A DNA stretch of 33,800 nt from Candidatus Omnitrophota bacterium (lineage in GTDB: Bacteria; Omnitrophota; Gorgyraeia; Gorgyraeales; Gorgyraeaceae). Both the position numbers and the translations under genes were made by a program. Below, piece by piece: positions 7,899-26,034 of this stretch; the first letter of the stretch is position 1, and every line of letters starts with the position of its first letter. A model generated the notes under the pieces. It was given only the letters and a program-made list of their open reading frames with translations, did not search any database and was not told the DNA's origin. The stretch is taken from NCBI GenBank assembly GCA_018902915.1, contig JAHIPS010000113.1:1-33800 (forward strand), read 5' to 3'.

Positions 7899-8725
7899 CG
7901 TATGTTGTCCAAGGCTAAGCCTTGGACAATATTATCTATCTTCTTTACATCTTTCAACAAGCTCTCCAGCGTCTTTAAGGTAATCATGTTCGGGCCGTCG
8001 CAAGGCGCCTTGTCAGGATCCTTGTGGACCTCGAGAAACAGGCCGTCGCAGCCCATTGCAACTGCTGCGCGCGAAAGTCCCGGCACGAATTTTCTCTCGC
8101 CTCCTGAAGCGCTCCCTTTGCCGCCTGGAAGCTGCACGCTGTGAGTCGCGTCATAAACAACAGGGTAACCAAAGTCAGCTAATATCTCGAGTGAACGCAT
8201 GTCGCTCACGAGATTATTGTAACCAAATGTCGTGCCACGCTCTGTTATGATAATATTTTTATTCCCGGCGCTCTCTACCTTTTCTATTACATTCTTTATA
8301 TCCCAGGGCGCCAGGAACTGGCCTTTTTTAATATTAACTACTTTTGCTGTCTTTGCGATCTCTATGACAAAATCTGTCTGCCTGCACAGAAACGCAGGGA
8401 TCTGAATCACATCCAAAACTTTTTTTGCCTTTTCAAGTTCGGTTTTGCAATGCACATCGCTCAATATTGGCACAGCCAGATCCTTTTTTATCTTGGCCAG
8501 GATCTCCAGGCCCTCGTCAATACCAGGACCTCTATACGAATCCTTGCTGGAGCGATTTGCCTTGTCATAGCTGGACTTGAATATAAAACCCATGTCCAGT
8601 TTTTTGCAAATCTGACTGATGGACCTCGCATGCTCCATCGCGTGCTTCTCGCTTTCTATCACGCACGGCCCTGCGATCAATACAATCGGTTTACCCTTGC
8701 CTATCTCTACCTTTCCTACCTTCAT
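7895..8725 (-). CDS. kdsA: Kdo-8-phosphate synthase KdsA
   Basis: 'IAGPCVIESEKHAMEHARSI', 'FKSSYDKANRSS', 'GTTFGYNNLVSDMRSL', 'VYDATHSVQLPGG'. Confidence 0.97.
   Translation of the reverse strand: MKVGKVEIGKGKPIVLIAGPCVIESEKHAMEHARSISQICKKLDMGFIFKSSYDKANRSSKDSYRGPGIDEGLEILAKIKKDLAVPILSDVHCKTELEKAKKVLDVIQIPAFLCRQTDFVIEIAKTAKVVNIKKGQFLAPWDIKNVIEKVESAGNKNIIITERGTTFGYNNLVSDMRSLEILADFGYPVVYDATHSVQLPGGKGSASGGERKFVPGLSRAAVAMGCDGLFLEVHKDPDKAPCDGPNMITLKTLESLLKDVKKIDNIVQGLALDNIR
7905..7929. repeat. Palindrome family C (TTGTCCAAGGCT-A-AGCCTTGGACAA) forming the kdsA 3' end
   Basis: 12-bp perfect arms around one central base; encodes 'VQGLALDN' of KdsA. Confidence 0.9.
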
Positions 8726-11534: not shown

Positions 11535-11586
11535 ATATTCCCCTCGACTTATCGGAGTATTCTAACACCATTACTCCTGGGTGTCA

Positions 11587-11781
11587 ACCCCGTTCCAAAT
11601 TCTGTTCTTGTCAAGCCAAATTAGAAATGTCCTATAGTTACCAAAGTAGAAATGTCCTATTTTCATGATGTAATTAGTACCCCGTTCCAAATTCTTTAAG
11701 TATTAGCAAATGATATATAAGAATTGCACGCGGTCAGCTACAAACAATAAATGGACTATCAATTAGAATTTGGAACGGGGT
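11587..11781. repeat. Composite of three 17-bp repeats ACCCCGTTCCAAATTCT (two direct, one inverted) plus a doubled TAGAAATGTCCTAT
   Basis: Copies at 11587-11603, 11679-11695 and inverted 11765-11781; TAGAAATGTCCTAT at 11622-11635 and 11647-11660. Confidence 0.88.
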
Positions 11782-12580
11782 CAAGCTGCTCGATTTTTTG
11801 AAGCGTTATAGTGACAGTGCCCACAAAAGGTATGCCGCTCGTGACCATGAGAAGCGGGATCCTTTTCTCATCTGATGAAAACCACGCGGTGGCCTTTGCC
11901 TTTCGTTTTACCTTGCCCTGAAACCACGGCAAGGGCTCCACCATGAACGCCTCCCATTCGCCGACACCTTTAATATTTATAACGCCTTTCTTGTGGATCT
12001 TTGCTTCCAGTAGATAATTCTTTTCATCAGCGCTCATATTCGCAAAAATTGATTTTCCAACATTCACGTCCTGCAGTCTGAAATAATACATGATGCTCAG
12101 CGTGTCCTGCACGCGCATGGGTATATCAAATTCCTTTTTAGAGTGGTTAAGCCGCGAAAAATAAACCGCCTTTCCCTTTTTCTGGTAAAAATCAATATAT
12201 TCGTCCGAGCGATAACCGCCTTCTCTCTGTTTTTTCTCAAACCTCACAGGATAAAATTCTTCCACGTCCAGATACGTGAATATATCGTCTTCGACCTTGT
12301 AAAGCTTTGATATAATCGGCGTTGACTCGGCGCGAGCGTGTATCTTATAAACCTTGCGGCCGTTTCTTTCCGTGATCTCTTCTACGGTCAGCGTAGCAAT
12401 GCCAACATCCAGGCCCAGCCATTCTGCCTTGTATATAAGCTTCTCGCCTACCTGCAATTTTAAAGGCGGCGCCTTTATAACAAACTCTTCTGACTTGCGT
12501 ATGACCCTGTACTTTCCCAGAAACCCGCACCCGGATATAAAAAATATCAAAATAAATATAAATACTGCTTTCGGTCTCAT
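11759..12580 (-). CDS. DUF3108-like lipoprotein
   Basis: Lipobox 'FILIFFISGC'; 'LQVGEKLIYKAEWLGLDVGIATLTVEE' is DUF3108-like; ATG 12580 overlaps the upstream TGA (ATGA). Confidence 0.75.
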   Translation of the reverse strand: MRPKAVFIFILIFFISGCGFLGKYRVIRKSEEFVIKAPPLKLQVGEKLIYKAEWLGLDVGIATLTVEEITERNGRKVYKIHARAESTPIISKLYKVEDDIFTYLDVEEFYPVRFEKKQREGGYRSDEYIDFYQKKGKAVYFSRLNHSKKEFDIPMRVQDTLSIMYYFRLQDVNVGKSIFANMSADEKNYLLEAKIHKKGVINIKGVGEWEAFMVEPLPWFQGKVKRKAKATAWFSSDEKRIPLLMVTSGIPFVGTVTITLQKIEQLDPVPNSN

Positions 12581-13602
12581 AGTAATTCGCTGGCCTTTTC
12601 CACTACCTCTTCCACGGTTACTGATCTGATGCACAAAAAACCTTTATTGCAATTGTGCGCAAGGCACTCGACGCAGCCCACATCTTTATGAAGCGCCACG
12701 GTTCTATCTCCGAGCGGCCCCCACCTCTCAGGGCTAAGTCCTTTTTCATTTCTCGCAAAAATAGATATTACCGGCGTACCAATAGCGCATGCTATGTGGA
12801 CAGGGCCTGAATCATTTGAAATAAATAAATTCGCCTTTTTAAACAATGCCCCCAGATCCCCGAGAGATGTCCTGCCGCACAAAAATACCGGCTTATTTTT
12901 CATCGAAAACATGACCTTCTCGCCTATCTTTACATGCTCAGGGGCTGAAACCAATAAAGCGCGCACACCAAATCTCTCTATTAAAATGTCGGCGGCCTTT
13001 GCAAAATTCTCATGGGGCCACATCTTTGAAACAGAGCTCGCGCCAGGATGCAGGACTATAAACTTCTCTCCCTGCCGCAGCCCGTTTTCCCTGAGTAATT
13101 CTCCCACGTTCTTTTCATTCTCCTTCTTAACAGGCATGAGAAGCGGCGAAATCCTCGCATCAACCCCAATAGACCGCAATATATCCAGCGAATATTCAGC
13201 CTCGTGCTTTTCGCCAAGCCTCTTTTTGTAAGGCAATCTATTCGTCAAAAGAAAATCCATCTTGCCTCTCGCGTACCCCACTCTTTTTGGTATGCCGGCC
13301 AAAAACGAAATAAGGTTGACCCTGTTTGTAGAATGCAGGATCAGCGCAAGGTCAAATTTTTTATTTTTAAGCCACTTTGCAAAATAGAGTGTCTCTAAAA
13401 TACCTTTTTTATCACAGGTGATCACCTCATTGATGTACGGATTGCCCGCGACGATCTCTTTTGTCTTTGGCGAGACCATTACGGCAATATACGCGTTCGG
13501 AAACGCCTTGCGGCTGGCAGTAATCGTAGGCGTGGAAAGCACCACGTCGCCTATTCTATCTGTCCTCGCGATCAATATCCGCTTTATCTTTGTAATGTCC
13601 AT
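12577..13602 (-). CDS. Glycosyltransferase family 9 (heptosyltransferase)
   Basis: 'RILIARTDRIGDVVLSTPTITASRKAFPNA', 'FIVLHPGASSVSKMWPHENFAKAAD', 'FISNDSGPVHIACAIGTPVISIFA'. Confidence 0.92.
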   Translation of the reverse strand: MDITKIKRILIARTDRIGDVVLSTPTITASRKAFPNAYIAVMVSPKTKEIVAGNPYINEVITCDKKGILETLYFAKWLKNKKFDLALILHSTNRVNLISFLAGIPKRVGYARGKMDFLLTNRLPYKKRLGEKHEAEYSLDILRSIGVDARISPLLMPVKKENEKNVGELLRENGLRQGEKFIVLHPGASSVSKMWPHENFAKAADILIERFGVRALLVSAPEHVKIGEKVMFSMKNKPVFLCGRTSLGDLGALFKKANLFISNDSGPVHIACAIGTPVISIFARNEKGLSPERWGPLGDRTVALHKDVGCVECLAHNCNKGFLCIRSVTVEEVVEKASELL

Positions 13603-13620: not shown

Positions 13621-13700
13621 AACTTATCCACACTGTATATCCCACGCCCACATCCACACTGTAGGGCACGTTTAAACGTGCCCTACAGTGTGGATAAGTT
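13621..13700. repeat. Palindrome family B: 44-bp perfect palindrome (13652-13695) inside a longer inverted repeat
   Basis: ATCCACACTGTAGGGCACGTTTAAACGTGCCCTACAGTGTGGAT, no spacer; also aacttatccacactgta 13621-13637 vs tacagtgtggataagtt 13684-13700. Confidence 0.95.
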
Positions 13701-14628
13701 TTTCTATAACGTCCTGTGCGCTGAGGTCTTTCATGCACTCGTGGTTGAACCTGCAGCGCGGTTTTTTGCACGGCGCGCATTTAAGGTCCTTTCGTATAAC
13801 CACGTCGTCCTTACCTGTAGGGCCGTACTCCCCTGGATCTGTTGGCCCGAATATTGCCGCTACCCTCACGCCGAGGTCACAGGCAATATGCAGCGCCGCA
13901 GAGTCGCATGTCAAAAGCAGCTTCATGCGCTCTATCAATGCAAAAAGCTGATTTAGATCTGTTTCTCCTGTCAGGTCGATCAGGTTTTCGCTCGCTATAG
14001 CATCTGTTATTTTTTTAGAACTATTTTTCTGGGCGCTGTCGCCTATTAAGACAATCTTGAAATCCCCATGGTTTAAAAGAGTCTTTATGACATCTATAAA
14101 CCCGTCTGTCCGCCACTGCTTTAAAAGACTGCGGCATGACGGGCTCACGCCTATAACCATATCCCCCTCTTTTACACCCTTTGCCTCGAGAAGCCCGGCC
14201 ACGCTTTTCCTGTCTTCCTCATCAATAAAAATATTCTGCCTGAGTCTACATTCGATTCCCAGCTCCTTTAATTTATTTAAATGCACTGATCTTTTGTGTA
14301 TGGCCCTGGTTTTATTTATTGAAAATAATTTTGACCTTTTTTTAGCGCCGATCAGGATCGGTATCAGGCTCGTCCTCATATCCACTGCCAGGTCATACAT
14401 CTGGGCCCTTAATATTCTGATAAAATCCATCTTTGTCTTTAAACCAGTTTGCTTGTCATACACAAAAACCCTGTTAACTCCCGGGTCTTTTTCAAAAATC
14501 TCTTTTGGCCGCGGTCCTACTACCACATCTATTTTCGCGCCGGGAAAATTGTCCTTTAGCGCGGATAAAACCGGCAATGCCAGGATTGCGTCGCCTATAT
14601 TGCTAAGTGTTATAAAAAGGATCTTCAC
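13672..14628 (-). CDS. Glycosyltransferase family 9 (heptosyltransferase)
   Basis: 'KILFITLSNIGDAILALPVLSALKDNFPGAKIDVVVG', 'LLTCDSAALHIACDLGVRVAAIFGPTDPGEYGP'; GTG 14628 overlaps upstream TGA; stop lies in the palindrome centre. Confidence 0.92.
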   Translation of the reverse strand: MKILFITLSNIGDAILALPVLSALKDNFPGAKIDVVVGPRPKEIFEKDPGVNRVFVYDKQTGLKTKMDFIRILRAQMYDLAVDMRTSLIPILIGAKKRSKLFSINKTRAIHKRSVHLNKLKELGIECRLRQNIFIDEEDRKSVAGLLEAKGVKEGDMVIGVSPSCRSLLKQWRTDGFIDVIKTLLNHGDFKIVLIGDSAQKNSSKKITDAIASENLIDLTGETDLNQLFALIERMKLLLTCDSAALHIACDLGVRVAAIFGPTDPGEYGPTGKDDVVIRKDLKCAPCKKPRCRFNHECMKDLSAQDVIEKLIHTVGHV

Positions 14629-15620
14629 GCCAGCGCCTCCATCACCTCTTCCACAGTTACCACGCTCATGCATTTATTGTCTTTGCACGAAAGTTTGTAG
14701 CAGGGGATCTCACAGCCGACGTTTTTCTCCAGGACTTTGTACGTACCACTGCCATAAGGTCCTGTTATGCGCGAAGATGTCGGACCAAATAACGCGATAA
14801 CAGGGGCTCCCACGCCCACTGCAATATGCATGGGCCCGGAATCGCTGGAGATAACCTTTTTCGCCTTTTGAAAAACAGCGCCCAGTGTCTTCAGGCTCGT
14901 CTTGCCGCACAATAAAAAAGGTTTGTTCTTCATCATCCCTGAGATATTCCTGCACAGCTCGATATCTTTTTTCGCGCCGGTCAAAACAACCTTCGCGTTA
15001 AACCTATTAACGATCTCGTCTCCTAATCTTGCAAAATTCCCGGCAGGCCAGCGTTTTAAATCCCAGTTTCCTCCCGGGTTTAATGCTATAAAATCCTCTT
15101 TGTCCTTAAGGCCTGCCTCTTTTAATATTTTAGACGCCTTGGTTACATCGCTTTCAGAGACAAAAAACTCATAGTTTACGCTTTTTGGCTCCAGGCCAAC
15201 GCCCCTGGCAAGACCTATAAAATATTCCACCCTGTGTAGATCTTTTTTTGGCGCAAGAATCTTTTTTGTCAGCAAAAATCCTGACTTCCTGTTATTATAG
15301 CCTATTCGCTCTGGTATCTTTGAAAGAAAAAGAAGCATTGTCCGACTCAGGGATTTACGCAATATAAACGCTGTGTCGAATTTTTTTGCCTTTAGCTCTG
15401 AGACAAGCAAAAGCCTTCCCATAAGATGGCTGTGGCGCCCCTTCGCATCATATGTGATGATCTCGTCTATGTAAGGGTTGCCTTCCAGGACCTCCTCGCA
15501 CCTCGAGTGCGTTAGTATGGCCACGTACGAATCAGGGGCATTCTCTTTAATTGCCCTTATAAAAGGAGTAGCAAAAATCGTATCGCCAAGCCAGTTTACA
15601 TTAACAATAAGTATCCGTTT
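14625..15620 (-). CDS. waaF: LPS heptosyltransferase II-like (GT9)
   Basis: 'RILIVNVNWLGDTIFATPFIRAIKENAPDSYVAILTH', 'NPGGNWDLKRWPAGNFARLGDE', 'VISSDSGPMHIAVGVGAPVIALFGPTSSRITGPYG'. Confidence 0.9.
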   Translation of the reverse strand, partial: KRILIVNVNWLGDTIFATPFIRAIKENAPDSYVAILTHSRCEEVLEGNPYIDEIITYDAKGRHSHLMGRLLLVSELKAKKFDTAFILRKSLSRTMLLFLSKIPERIGYNNRKSGFLLTKKILAPKKDLHRVEYFIGLARGVGLEPKSVNYEFFVSESDVTKASKILKEAGLKDKEDFIALNPGGNWDLKRWPAGNFARLGDEIVNRFNAKVVLTGAKKDIELCRNISGMMKNKPFLLCGKTSLKTLGAVFQKAKKVISSDSGPMHIAVGVGAPVIALFGPTSSRITGPYGSGTYKVLEKNVGCEIPCYKLSCKDNKCMSVVTVEEVMEALA

Positions 15621-17503: not shown

Positions 17504-17635
17504 AAACTCTAAACACTAAACTCTAAATCCTAAACAAACTCAAAACTCAAAATCCAAATTTCCAAAACCGCAATTTTTGTGTTTGGGATTTAGGATTTGT
17601 TTAGAGTTTAGGATTTCGGATTTAGTGTTTATAAC
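17504..17635. repeat. Imperfect long inverted repeat, family F (aaactctaaacactaaa... / ...tttagtgttta)
   Basis: taaacactaaa 17510-17520 vs tttagtgttta 17621-17631; surrounding ctctaaatcctaaac vs gtttagagtttaggat. Confidence 0.8.
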
Positions 17636-19791
17636 TTTAATCTCTCCATCACCAGTTTATACACCTCATCCACCGTAATCTTTTCCATACACACGATGTT
17701 TTTGCACCTGGCCCTGTAGCAGGGGCCACAGTCCACTTTTTTCTGCAAGACAACGCCCTTTTCAGTAGGTTCAAAATGTCTTCTCGCGTCAGTCGGGCCG
17801 AATAGCGCGATAAAATCCGTGTTCATGGCTGACGCTATATGCATGGGCGCGCTGTCGCTCGTGACAAACACCCTGCATTTTTTTATCAATGCCGCGAGCT
17901 GCGTCACGGTCGTCTTCCCGGCCGCGTTCACGATCTTGGCGCGGGTGGAGCCTGTAAACTTTTTTACAATATCCGACTCTTCCTTTGAGCCGGTAACAAC
18001 AACCCTTACGTCTTTTGCAGTCAGCATATCTGAGAGCTTTGCAAAATTCTCTAAAGGCCACCTCTTTGTATTCCAGCTGCCGCCGATATTGATACCAACA
18101 AGTAATTGGTTCTCCCTCATCCACTGGTTCTTCAAAAAATCATCCACGTATGAAAAATCCTCTTTGCCTGGCCAGAGCTCCATGCGCTTGGAAGCGCCAA
18201 TGGTATTTATGCCCGCCTTCTTGAGCACCCTGAATTGCTCCTCGACAGGACCCGCGCCGATCTTTAAAGGCTTCAATCTATTGTTGAGCAAAAACCCGAA
18301 TTTATTATTGCTATAGCCATAGCGCTTCCTGACCGCTCCCAGCCACGCGATAATATGACTGGCCCTCGAATTCTGAAAATCCAGAGACATATCAAATGCC
18401 TTGCGCTTTACCACGCCAGCCACTTTTAAGAGTCCCCTGAGGCCAGCGTCATTTCCTTTTCTGTCATAAAAAATAAGCTCGTCTATATACGGGCATCTTT
18501 TCAATACATGCCTGGATTCGACTCCCGCGAGCACGCTTATAAACGCGTCGGGAAAATTATTCCTGATCTCCCTGATGCTCGGGACAGCGAGTATCACATC
18601 ACCTATCGCCCCTATTTTTATCACAAGGATCCTTTTCTTTTTGCACGCCTCCTCGTATACCTTTATAGTATTCTCGGCCATGCGCGTCAGGCTGTATTCT
18701 CTCTCTACTTTTTTCCTTGCCGCGGCCGCAAGCGTTTTGGCGAGCGGCCTGTCCTTTAAGAGTTTTATTATAGAATCCACCATTTCCATTATGTCGCCTG
18801 GCTTCACGAGCATACCGGTCTTATTGTTCTCTATGATATCCACTGCCCCGCCTATGCGGCCGCTTATAACAGGAACGCCCGCTGCCCCTGCCTCGATAAT
18901 GACGCGGCCGAATGCCTCCTGGCCAACAGACGGCAGGACCAGAAGATCCAGGCTTGACATCACCTCAGGTATGTCGTGCCGCGAACCTAAAAACTCCACG
19001 AATTCTTCTATGTTAAGCTTGCGGATCAATGTCTTTAGATTTTCCTTGTACTCGGGTTTACTCTTTGGCGCGTCGCCGACGATCAGCACCTTTACCCCGT
19101 TCGAAAGACCTCTGCTTTTAGGATCACCGTCTTTTCGAACGGGGTTTACCTTTGGGAATATCCTGACTACCCTCGCGATGGCCTGCAAGAAAAAGGCATG
19201 CCCTTTTATGGGTGTGATCCTTCCGACAACGCCGATTCTGTATTCTGTTTTTTGGCGCGTCTCGTCTATCGGATTAAATTTAAATCTTTCAAGGTCAACG
19301 CCCCTCGGGATAAACCGTATCCTGTCGCGCGGCACGGCAAAATCCTCTATCATGTGACGGCCTATGACGCTGGAGGAGACTATCACAAACCTGCCCCATG
19401 CCATGACGCGGCTTAAAGCATGCGTCGAGTAATAGCCGTGCGCGGTCGTGATAAAACTCGCGTCTGTTCGGCGGGTCGCGAAAAACGCGATAATGGCTGG
19501 CACGCGCGAGCGGGCGTGCACGATGTCGACGCGCCCGTCCTTTATAATGCGCTCGAGCCTCCCGACCATTTTCAACGCTGTAAAAAAAGACTTTTTATAC
19601 ACGGGGAGTTTTATGTGTCTTACGTCTATATCCGCGAGCTCCTTGACCATCTTGCCGCCACCAGACACAACAGTAACCTTGTGGCCCCGCTTCACCAGCT
19701 CCCTGGCCAGGTCAATCGTGCCTGTTTCCACACCGCCCACTTCCAGCATTGGAAGAATCTGTAATATATGCATAAGCTTCATACTGTTCAA
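17629..19791 (-). CDS. GT4-GT9 fusion glycosyltransferase
   Basis: N-terminal GT4 ('LPMLEVGGVETGTIDLARELVKRGH', 'EAFGRVIIEAGAAGVPVISGRIGG') followed in frame by GT9 ('RILVIKIGAIGDVILAVPSIREIRNNFP', 'FVTSDSAPMHIASAMNTDFIALFGPTDARRHFEP'). Confidence 0.92.
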   Translation of the reverse strand: MNSMKLMHILQILPMLEVGGVETGTIDLARELVKRGHKVTVVSGGGKMVKELADIDVRHIKLPVYKKSFFTALKMVGRLERIIKDGRVDIVHARSRVPAIIAFFATRRTDASFITTAHGYYSTHALSRVMAWGRFVIVSSSVIGRHMIEDFAVPRDRIRFIPRGVDLERFKFNPIDETRQKTEYRIGVVGRITPIKGHAFFLQAIARVVRIFPKVNPVRKDGDPKSRGLSNGVKVLIVGDAPKSKPEYKENLKTLIRKLNIEEFVEFLGSRHDIPEVMSSLDLLVLPSVGQEAFGRVIIEAGAAGVPVISGRIGGAVDIIENNKTGMLVKPGDIMEMVDSIIKLLKDRPLAKTLAAAARKKVEREYSLTRMAENTIKVYEEACKKKRILVIKIGAIGDVILAVPSIREIRNNFPDAFISVLAGVESRHVLKRCPYIDELIFYDRKGNDAGLRGLLKVAGVVKRKAFDMSLDFQNSRASHIIAWLGAVRKRYGYSNNKFGFLLNNRLKPLKIGAGPVEEQFRVLKKAGINTIGASKRMELWPGKEDFSYVDDFLKNQWMRENQLLVGINIGGSWNTKRWPLENFAKLSDMLTAKDVRVVVTGSKEESDIVKKFTGSTRAKIVNAAGKTTVTQLAALIKKCRVFVTSDSAPMHIASAMNTDFIALFGPTDARRHFEPTEKGVVLQKKVDCGPCYRARCKNIVCMEKITVDEVYKLVMERLKL
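19095..19144. repeat. In-frame palindromic insert in the GT4 domain, family E-like (ccccgttcgaaagac / gtcttttcgaacgggg)
   Basis: Arms 19095-19109 and 19129-19144 with a single-base bulge; encodes most of 'NPVRKDGDPKSRGLSNGV'. Confidence 0.88.
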
Positions 19792-19851
19792 GGCTTAGCC
19801 TTGAACAGCAGCCTTGAACAGCAAAACTTGTTCAAGGCTAAGCCTTGAACA
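19785..19851. repeat. Family C palindromes: two full copies plus a fragment
   Basis: tgttcaaggcttagccttgaaca 19785-19807; partial gccttgaacagc ~19811-19822; tgttcaaggctaagccttgaaca 19829-19851. Confidence 0.95.
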
Positions 19852-19880
19852 GCAAAGCCTTTAACAGCATCAGACAGTGT

Positions 19881-21908
19881 CTACATCAGTGCTTGTAAAC
19901 GCTGGGTGATGGCGCTTCTATCTCCCAGTTCTTTTAGCGCCGGCCTTTGTTTTAAGACCTGTTTTATAGTGTCGTATATTTCTTCAGCTGACGCAGTTTT
20001 TATATAGCCCTGTTTCTCAAGATTCTCAAGATTTCGACCATACTTACCCTTCACCCTCCACCCATGCCCCGTACCCGAACGAAGTGAGTGGTTCGGGGCT
20101 TCACCCTGCACCCCAAACACCACGACACGTCTCTTTGCGCTCACTGCCTCTGAGATCATAGAGATCGACTCGGGCGAGACAACAACCAGCTCGCTGGAGT
20201 CTAAAATCTTTTGCACAGCGCCTTTAATATTTTTTTCATTTGCAATAACCAAAAGTTTGCACCTTTCATTACCTTTCAATCTTTCTTTTAACAAAGAATC
20301 GATCTCAGGCGAAGTCCTTCTGGATGTTGAAATAAATACATCGCGATCCATGTCCTCCGCTATTTTAAAAACGCCGTCTATTGTCTTCTCCACGTCTTTT
20401 TTCTCCAATTTAAAATTCTTCGCATCGCCACCAATAAGTACCCCTATGCCCCGAGCTACGAGCCCCGAACCTTGAGCCATTCTATTAGGCGCTGCCTCTG
20501 TAATTAACATATTCCCTCTCCCCACCCTGTAGGGCAGGTTTAAACCTGCCCTACAGGGTGGGGAGAGGGTTAGGGCAAGGGGCTCATCATGCCTTGGTAA
20601 AATAATCAAATCAAATTTCCCGGCCCGGCCTAACCCGGGTTTCATGATCGCGGCATTCTTAGCATTATTCTCATACTTTAGGAAAATATTAGTGCCTGCT
20701 GTAGAAGCCCCGCAAGATATAATAATATCCGCGTATCTATTTTTAACTTCATCAAACGAAGTTTTCTTTAAACAAACCTTGAGACATCTCAAGCATCCCT
20801 GACACCGAGGCCCTGCAAAAAAACTGCAAACATCCAAAAGCATCCTTGCAAACTTATTCTTAAACTCTAGCTTGGCTATTTTAATCTTAACGATAGGCTT
20901 TTCTTGAATCCCCCGAGCCATGAGCCATGAACCCAGGGCATCCTCTACCATTTCTGCCACTGCCTGTGACTGATTAAGGTGACCTGGTTTGCCATCGCTT
21001 AAAACCAGAACAGTACGCTCTGGGGTTAATTTCCATCTTTTATGAGACCATAACCATTGATCCGGATATTTTCTGATATAGGCCTCTGTAATATCTGTTA
21101 TCTTATCCAGATTCTTTTTCATGTCTTTTTCTTTATCGCCTGTATTAACAAGATCTACGGGCCCTCCCATATCTATAACATGCCTATCGAATCCTGCCTG
21201 ACGTCTTATAAAACAAGTAACTATGCTAGCGCCTGTCTTTAATGCAAAGTTCACCGGGCCCTGAGCAGTCGAAGCAGGTCTATGCATAAAATTAACAAAT
21301 ACACCATTTGCCCCGGCATTTTGATCAGCAAGCATGCCTATGATCCTATTATCCTTAAGAGCTCTTACCATCCCTCTTATAGCAAAACCTTTTGAGACGA
21401 TCTTACAACCGCTCATCTCCCTGTACTTAATCAATAGCTTATTAAGCCTGTTATATTTTTGATCTCTAGCAAAAACCATGAGACTGTGACCTCTTGAATT
21501 AGCAGCTAAAGAAGCGATCTCCCAGTTTCCAAAATGCGCGGCTAAAAGTATAATGCCTTTACCTTTTTTAAGCGCATTTTCAATTATATCAAAGCCTTTC
21601 AGCTCTATGTATTTATCTAAATAGTGCTTTTTAAGAACTGGGACTTTTAATAATTCCACAACATTCATTCCCAGGCTCTCATAATGCGCCCTTAAGATTC
21701 CATTGATCTCTTTTGTCTTTTTTCCAGGAAATGCTGCCTTTAGATTAGCATAACCTATTGCGCGACGTCTGGTATTTAAAAAACATGCGAGATTACCCAG
21801 ACACCTTCCTATCCAGAGCGCAGGACGTAGAGGCATCAAGCAGCAAACCAAGCTAAGAGACCTAATTAATATGAATCCTATTAAGTCTACTATAGAGTCT
21901 TTGTTCAT
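19881..21908 (-). CDS. LpxL/HtrB-like lipid A acyltransferase fused to an ELM1-like domain
   Basis: N-terminal 'GIILLAAHFGNWEIASLAANSRGHSLMVFAR', 'MLADQNAGANGVFVNFMHRPASTAQGPVNFALKTGA'; C-terminal 'VLVLSDGKPGHLNQSQAVAEMVEDAL', 'VVVSPESISMISEAVSAKRRVVVFGV' (ELM1-like). Confidence 0.85.
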   Translation of the reverse strand: MNKDSIVDLIGFILIRSLSLVCCLMPLRPALWIGRCLGNLACFLNTRRRAIGYANLKAAFPGKKTKEINGILRAHYESLGMNVVELLKVPVLKKHYLDKYIELKGFDIIENALKKGKGIILLAAHFGNWEIASLAANSRGHSLMVFARDQKYNRLNKLLIKYREMSGCKIVSKGFAIRGMVRALKDNRIIGMLADQNAGANGVFVNFMHRPASTAQGPVNFALKTGASIVTCFIRRQAGFDRHVIDMGGPVDLVNTGDKEKDMKKNLDKITDITEAYIRKYPDQWLWSHKRWKLTPERTVLVLSDGKPGHLNQSQAVAEMVEDALGSWLMARGIQEKPIVKIKIAKLEFKNKFARMLLDVCSFFAGPRCQGCLRCLKVCLKKTSFDEVKNRYADIIISCGASTAGTNIFLKYENNAKNAAIMKPGLGRAGKFDLIILPRHDEPLALTLSPPCRAGLNLPYRVGRGNMLITEAAPNRMAQGSGLVARGIGVLIGGDAKNFKLEKKDVEKTIDGVFKIAEDMDRDVFISTSRRTSPEIDSLLKERLKGNERCKLLVIANEKNIKGAVQKILDSSELVVVSPESISMISEAVSAKRRVVVFGVQGEAPNHSLRSGTGHGWRVKGKYGRNLENLEKQGYIKTASAEEIYDTIKQVLKQRPALKELGDRSAITQRLQALM
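20514..20569. repeat. 56-bp perfect palindrome, in frame in the ELM1-like domain (family B core with family A-like flanks)
   Basis: CCCTCTCCCCACCCTGTAGGGCAGGTTTAAACCTGCCCTACAGGGTGGGGAGAGGG; every base pair checked by hand, no spacer. Confidence 0.97.
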
Positions 21909-22890
21909 TGTCAATTATTTTGAGTTCGATGTGTAAAACTAAAAAGCTGATAGCTGATAGCTGATAGCTGATAGCTTTTAACTTTACAGCATCCTTTTCG
22001 GTTGTAATTATTGTAACAATATTGTTTTCCTTGCAATAATCTTCTATCGACTCTAAATCCCTTTTTGCATAGAAATGGTGATCGCGGAAAATAAAGTGTT
22101 TTTTGAATCCAAGCCCTAGATTTGAAATTGTTTTTTCAAATGAACTAGGATTGCCAATTGCTGAAACTAGCGCAATATTTTTACCCTTCAATCCCTCGAT
22201 ATCCACGAGCTGCTCGTTTGAAAGTTTATAAAAATATCCGGGCGCATGAATCGATTTTACTATAAGGGCGTTGGGATTTATTTTTTTAAGCTTCTCTTCC
22301 AGGCGCACTGTATCCTGCGCTAAATCCACTTTTGTAAGCAAAAACACGCCTGACCTTTTAAGCGAGCCAAGACCCTCTCGCATCGAACCAGCAGGCATCA
22401 CGCAGCCGTTCCCGAAAGGGGCTGTCGCGTCAATACACACTATATCCAGATCCCTCTTCAGGCGCCTGTGCTGAAACCCGTCATCCAGTAAAATCGTATC
22501 TGCACCGTGCCTGGCTATTGCGGCCTTACCAGTCTTTACCCTATCTCTGCCCACCACTACTGGGACTTCGGAAATCAATCTCGGCAACAAGTCCTTCTCG
22601 TCATTGCCATAACCCCTTATTAAAATCGCGGGCCTTGAGCCATTTTTCAAAAGCTCTTTAGTAATAGCTGCGACTGCCGGAGTCTTTCCTGTGCCGCCCC
22701 ATGTAATATTGCCCACGCTAATAACTCTGGCATCAAGCGCACGCGCCTTAAAAATACCCTTGCGCCAGAAAAAATCCCAAATCACGAGGATCGCATAATA
22801 CACGGCTGAAAAAGGCAAAAGCAACAACCTCACATCTCCCCCTTCCTTGAGTTGACAAAATGAACGTGTCGCGTTTGTCAACTTAAGCAT
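21862..22890 (-). CDS. lpxK: Tetraacyldisaccharide 4'-kinase LpxK
   Basis: 'VISVGNITWGGTGKTPAVAAI', 'LLDDGFQHRRLKRDLDIVCIDA', 'IITTEKDAVKL'. The first ~150 aa of the tracked ORF overlap the permease and are spurious; start is ATG 22890 (TAATG overlap) or GTG 22833. Confidence 0.93.
   Translation of the reverse strand: MLKLTNATRSFCQLKEGGDVRLLLLPFSAVYYAILVIWDFFWRKGIFKARALDARVISVGNITWGGTGKTPAVAAITKELLKNGSRPAILIRGYGNDEKDLLPRLISEVPVVVGRDRVKTGKAAIARHGADTILLDDGFQHRRLKRDLDIVCIDATAPFGNGCVMPAGSMREGLGSLKRSGVFLLTKVDLAQDTVRLEEKLKKINPNALIVKSIHAPGYFYKLSNEQLVDIEGLKGKNIALVSAIGNPSSFEKTISNLGLGFKKHFIFRDHHFYAKRDLESIEDYCKENNIVTIITTEKDAVKLKAISYQLSAISFLVLHIELKIIDNEQRLYSRLNRIHIN
21945..21976. repeat. Heptanucleotide tandem repeat (AGCTGAT)x4.6 inside lpxK
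   Basis: agctgat at 21945, 21952, 21959, 21966, then agct; encodes 'AISYQLSAIS'. Confidence 0.97.
22850..22883. repeat. Hairpin, family D (agttgacaaa / tttgtcaact)
   Basis: 10-bp perfect arms 22850-22859 and 22874-22883 at the lpxK 5' end. Confidence 0.8.
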
Positions 22891-25974: not shown

Positions 25975-26034
25975 AATTTGTTCAAGGCTAAGCCTTGAAC
26001 ATTTTAATGTTCAAGGCTTAGCCTTGAACAAATT
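25975..26034. repeat. 60-bp palindrome built from two family C palindromes
   Basis: 29-bp perfect arms 25975-26003 and 26006-26034, 2-nt loop; each arm itself contains TGTTCAAGGCTWAGCCTTGAACA. Confidence 0.96.

Follow-up and report, generated by a model that had tools for sequence, protein, structure and literature searches.

Palindromes that are translated as part of a protein have hitherto been regarded as peculiar to Rickettsia and Wolbachia, and the Rickettsia palindromic elements (RPE) reportedly go back to work by Ogata et al. in 2000 and 2002. RPE are described as in-frame mobile palindromes situated in conserved housekeeping genes and also in RNA genes (PMC2229807, PMC10969869), and their target duplication was entered as '?' in a 2007 review (PMC2229807). 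Two other groups of small bacterial elements are of relevance here. Bacterial MITEs (Correia/NEMIS, RUP, ERIC, Nezha, TIMEs) are short and non-autonomous, carry terminal inverted repeats and give target duplications, with some cases of in-frame fusions (PMC10969869, PMC2229807); they are mostly 70-300 nt long and resemble degenerated ISs (PMC3733652). REP elements, the GTAG- and CGTC-tagged palindromes accompanied by RAYT (Y1) transposases, are small and dispersed and some of them lie inside ORFs (PMC3733652).

The window analysed in this study, i.e. the whole stretch of 33,800 nt from a Candidatus Omnitrophota bacterium, contains a palindrome within a glycosyltransferase gene. The features of this locus are as follows.

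19095..19144, no strand assigned: 50-nt palindromic element, most probably mobile, with the ends CCCCGTTCGAAA / TTTCGAACGGGG and an interior of 26 nt
19091..19094, plus strand: left copy of the 4-bp target-site duplication, TTTA on the plus strand and TAAA on the coding strand
19145..19148, plus strand: right copy of the 4-bp target-site duplication, TTTA
19093..19146, minus strand: net insertion, 54 nt as read, residues 216-233, NPVRKDGDPKSRGLSNGV, missing from 29 of 29 orthologs
17629..19791, minus strand: host gene, a fusion of GT4 (Glycos_transf_1/Glyco_transf_4) and GT9 (heptosyltransferase-like), 720 aa, TTG start

The sequence at 19095-19144, CCCCGTTCGAAAGACCTCTGCTTTTAGGATCACCGTCTTTTCGAACGGGG, forms inverted-repeat arms which, with the outer A/T at 19094/19145 counted in, are perfect over 13 nt. 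In frame it is translated as NPVRKDGDPKSRGLSNGV, which makes up residues 216-233 of the product of 720 aa. The palindrome was recovered in none of 100 dinucleotide-preserving shuffles of the window, RNA folding of the palindrome strand gave z = -3.9 and an Rfam search of the window returned no match. The position of the inverted repeat as given in a first-pass annotation could be confirmed; the flanking 4-bp target duplication had been overlooked there.

A search for orthologs of the host gene over 39 relatives resulted in 30 loci, the window's own included, leaving 29 for comparison; 17 belong to the same family (63–75% identity) and 12 to the same class (45–49%), and orthologs were found in all same-family genomes searched except one. 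When aligned, the 18 residues (216-233) appear as an exact gap in all 29 orthologs, which supports the first-pass proposal that the GT4 domain holds an in-frame insert and shows that the segment is not universal among GT4 homologs. The gap is positioned between FPKV and KVLIVGD in the close orthologs while the aligner moves it by 1-2 residues in some of the distant ones. The nucleotide sequence of the window at this point is AAGGTAAA-CCCC...GGGG-TAAAGGTG and that of the ortholog L178 is AAGGTAAAGGTT. A single TAAA is found in the empty sites of L170, L178 (AAGGTAAAGGT), L184 and L188, compared with TAAA, 50 nt and a second TAAA in the window. Since the 50 nt of the element and the 4 nt of the duplication add up to 54 nt, or 18 codons, the reading frame is kept. 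The insert would have arrived relatively recently, after the split from the nearest sequenced relatives.

An AlphaFold model built from 28 aligned orthologs (mean pLDDT 90.3) places the insert between helix 198-211 and strand 232-239, in a loop of the C-terminal Rossmann domain. The only segments of at least three residues with a pLDDT below 50 are 217-220 and 222-230, and the question raised in the first pass, whether the insert lies in a surface loop, is answered by the model with a loop of surface type and low confidence. The 18-residue loop is probably unstructured and would be tolerated and neutral for the protein; no function is indicated for the peptide.

Within the window's own genome the palindrome at 19095-19144 is the only copy. 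The first-pass annotation had proposed a search across the proteome, and this check gave no second copy of the palindrome in the genome, so that the case for mobility in this species rests on the footprint and on what is seen in other species. The search pattern ACCCCGTTNGAAA-N(2-32)-TTTCNAACGGGGT, giving copies with the ends CCCCGTTNGAAA...TTTCNAACGGGG and a length of 27–56 nt in the set as limited by the pattern, matches 28 of the 285 genomes of the phylum, while a reversed control pattern matches none. Among GTDB contigs the pattern is present in at least 118 stretches, with about ten phyla represented among the matches listed; by record title these matches include Omnitrophota, Patescibacteria (several Parcubacteria), Nitrospirota, Deltaproteobacteria/Desulfobacterota, Nitrospinota, Elusimicrobia, Planctomycetota, Cloacimonadota, Aerophobetes and one MAG labelled Clostridia. 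The highest number in a single genome was seen in RBG_16_49_23, with up to ~95 ends per strand, and in UBA1562 near-identical copies occur at different sites (L045, L050, L105). The interiors differ widely among copies and most copies consist almost wholly of terminal repeat. The pattern gave no matches in IMG/VR viral contigs, and there is thus no sign of phage carriage. A search of the open-access literature revealed no description of the element family, of its peptide or ends, or of comparable elements from these phyla.

The target-site footprint was studied in 146 distinct copies, 145 of them scorable. An identical 4-bp word is present on both sides in 106 of the 145, compared with a mean of 37.7 and a maximum of 56 when the right flanks were shuffled. 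Matching flanks at widths of 2, 3, 5 and 6 were seen in no more than 6 copies each and inverted-symmetric flanks in only 5. The duplicated words are mainly TAAA (46) and TTTA (40), followed by TGAA (7), TCAA (5), TTCA (4) and others, and they all fit TNNA with TTTG as the sole exception. As the duplicated word differs between copies yet agrees on both sides of each, it belongs to the target. A footprint of this kind points to insertion through a 4-bp staggered cut, which is typical of DDE transposases.

A long ORF is spanned by 34 of the 146 copies, whereas 67% of positions drawn at random from the same loci fall in one, so that genes hold fewer copies than expected. The net length is divisible by three in all 34, although in-frame copies are to some extent preselected when an open frame is the criterion for lying in a gene. 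The empty-site view, in which the element and one duplication are removed, is independent of the filled frame and gave 32 copies in long ORFs, 31 of which are in frame and stop-free, the exception being L061. The ends are translated either as NPVR..SNGV (27 copies) or as TPLE..FLTG (7 copies), while the third frame contains a TAG in the common form. Among the host genes are those for IF-2, PNPase, topoisomerase I (TopA), DNA polymerase I (PolA), MurJ (twice), a Mur ligase, a class I tRNA synthetase, quinolinate phosphoribosyltransferase, a PBP transpeptidase, CinA and Ppx/GppA. The two in-frame copies in MurJ come from two Omnitrophota genomes (L017 1502-1554, residues 231-248, and L122 5102-5154, residues 224-241), and the similarity in residues would reflect either an inherited insertion or a repeated target.

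The in-frame pattern is most simply accounted for by insertion at random, with the frame-breaking cases lost afterwards. The 31 of 32 in frame would then be the residue left by selection against frameshifts and so give no evidence of the coding 'strategy' suggested in the first pass, an idea which the depletion of copies in genes also speaks against. An adaptation in length was considered as well and rejected as too weak, 42 of the 97 copies outside ORFs having net lengths that are multiples of three and the other two classes holding 24 and 31.

The window contains further palindromes, to which the one at 19095-19144 is unrelated in sequence, as had been claimed. For the accompanying, more general claim of coding tolerance a second in-frame palindrome, at 20514-20569, is weaker evidence because the loop in which it lies is rich in indels, with insertions in several relatives too. 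This 56-nt perfect palindrome, which has no clear target duplication, is translated as part of the ELM1-like domain of ORF 19881-21914, and a related 44-nt perfect palindrome at 13652-13695 overlaps the GT9 ORF 13672-14673 at its end. Between genes the palindrome TTGTTCAAGGCTAAGCCTTGAACA was identified at 7905-7929, 19784-19852 and 25975-26034, twice as close pairs. A second repeat family of the same genome, with the ends CCCCGTTCCAAATTC / GAATTTGGAACGGGG and a length of ~50–105 nt, is found at 11584-11781 of the window and at L147 3488, L148 2670 and L149 3759; both the window ORF 11759-12634 and an ORF in L149 terminate within the CCCCGTTCCAAATTC repeat as ..PVPNS. These repeats were rejected as kin of the element at 19095-19144, being a different and longer family which is located largely at gene ends and has an inconsistent duplication.

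In the search for the mobilising enzyme, DDE_Tnp_1, DDE_Tnp_1_4/IS1380-type and Y1_Tnp loci were inspected in element-rich genomes and none was bounded by these ends, and no end pairs 300–4000 nt apart with a matching duplication were present in 1.29 Mb of loci. The three transposase families and the paired-end search accordingly gave no autonomous parent IS, in MAGs that assemble multi-copy IS poorly. Orphan ends in six genomes (G288, G290, G285, G195, G171 and G197) were considered as ends of such a parent and discarded as decayed short palindromes. One element copy (L261 438-498, G288:C154) is located directly after a broken Y1_Tnp gene, with TTCA to the left, TGAG to the right and no duplication. 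A copy in UBA1562 that is 131 nt long and flanked by a CTCA duplication (L216 484-614, G285:C50) has the same ends as the others; it harbours an intact tRNA-Met(CAT) gene and itself interrupts the anticodon loop of another tRNA-Met, which ARAGORN detects only with the flanks joined. The tRNA-Met gene inside this element suggests that the ends can carry other DNA.

From these data the palindrome at 19095-19144 is very probably one copy of a non-autonomous, MITE-like mini-palindrome, mobilised by a transposase and inserted in frame in the GT4 domain. A putative trans-acting enzyme would recognise the ends CCCCGTTNGAAA and make a 4-bp staggered cut at TNNA in the fashion of DDE transposases, and repair would then give the 4-bp duplication. 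The target in this case would have been GGTAAAGGT, in the loop ahead of the beta-strand KVLIVGD in the C-terminal Rossmann domain of GT4, and with 50 + 4 = 54 nt the frame would be retained while the protein gains a loop of 18 residues. A bolder proposal, tentative and on balance doubtful, is that of one still-active minimal palindrome family with a TNNA footprint, spread over ~ten mostly subsurface phyla, moved by an unrecognised transposase and able to take along host sequences, for instance a tRNA gene, whose lengths (3n+2) and ends (with two of the three frames open in either orientation) would have been shaped for translation-neutral insertion.

A REP-like hairpin could instead be moved in single-stranded form by an HUH/Y1 enzyme (RAYT-like, Y1_Tnp), leaving no target duplication. 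Both the hairpin form and the presence of Y1_Tnp genes in nine of nine genomes tested, the window's own included, agree with this, but the target word is variable and its duplication is exactly 4 bp, which is not expected from IS200/IS605-type insertion. Nor is any Y1_Tnp locus flanked by the ends, and the sole locus with a copy (L261/L279) adjoins a broken Y1 gene, making a Y1 mechanism improbable. Even less can be said for the 18-residue loop having been recruited and selected for a new glycosyltransferase property. The gene is indeed open and otherwise intact over 720 codons, but the insert is confined to one species when compared with the 29 orthologs, the loop is modelled with low confidence and the peptide is set by the ends of the element, appearing as NPVRN..SNGV in unrelated proteins of other phyla as well.

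The strong mRNA hairpin might also propose that the element is bypassed by the ribosome during translation or spliced from the mRNA. A skipped hairpin would make frame and stops irrelevant, so the frame statistics, with 31 of 32 ORF insertions in frame and stop-free and one frame-breaker (L061), count against this and render it very unlikely. A palindrome seen as a single copy, in a MAG that is 86% complete and divided into 128 contigs, could moreover be a product of chance or of assembly; the shuffles (0 of 100), the exact insert and duplication at an orthologous empty site and the recurrence of these ends in genomes of independent projects make this explanation hardly credible.

Regarded as transposase-mobilised mini-palindromes, the elements share with bacterial MITEs the terminal inverted repeats, the lack of own coding capacity and a target duplication of fixed length, whereas their varying interiors would not usually be seen in a classic MITE that arose by internal deletion. 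They differ from the REP/RAYT systems in their ends, CCCCGTTNGAAA, which are neither GTAG nor CGTC, in having no physical link to Y1 and in the exact 4-bp duplication. Through the measurable target duplication the mechanism becomes testable, the enzyme in question being one that makes a 4-bp staggered cut at TNNA and binds CCCCGTTNGAAA. For the host proteins the insertions mean that conserved enzymes can acquire new loops in one step, and for annotators that segments reading NPVRN..SNGV or TPLE..FLTG in metagenome proteins represent mobile DNA and not conserved motifs.

The nearest known kind is RPE, and the present elements act like RPE in that a palindrome is translated in frame within conserved protein genes. 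In size and host range they differ, RPE being ~105–150 nt and found in Rickettsia, with related palindromes in Wolbachia, while the elements described here are mostly 27–56 nt and spread over ~ten phyla. Compared with published descriptions of RPE they are also set apart by other ends and by the 4-bp target duplication, and it is mainly in the breadth across phyla together with the 4-bp footprint that the interest of this smaller family lies.
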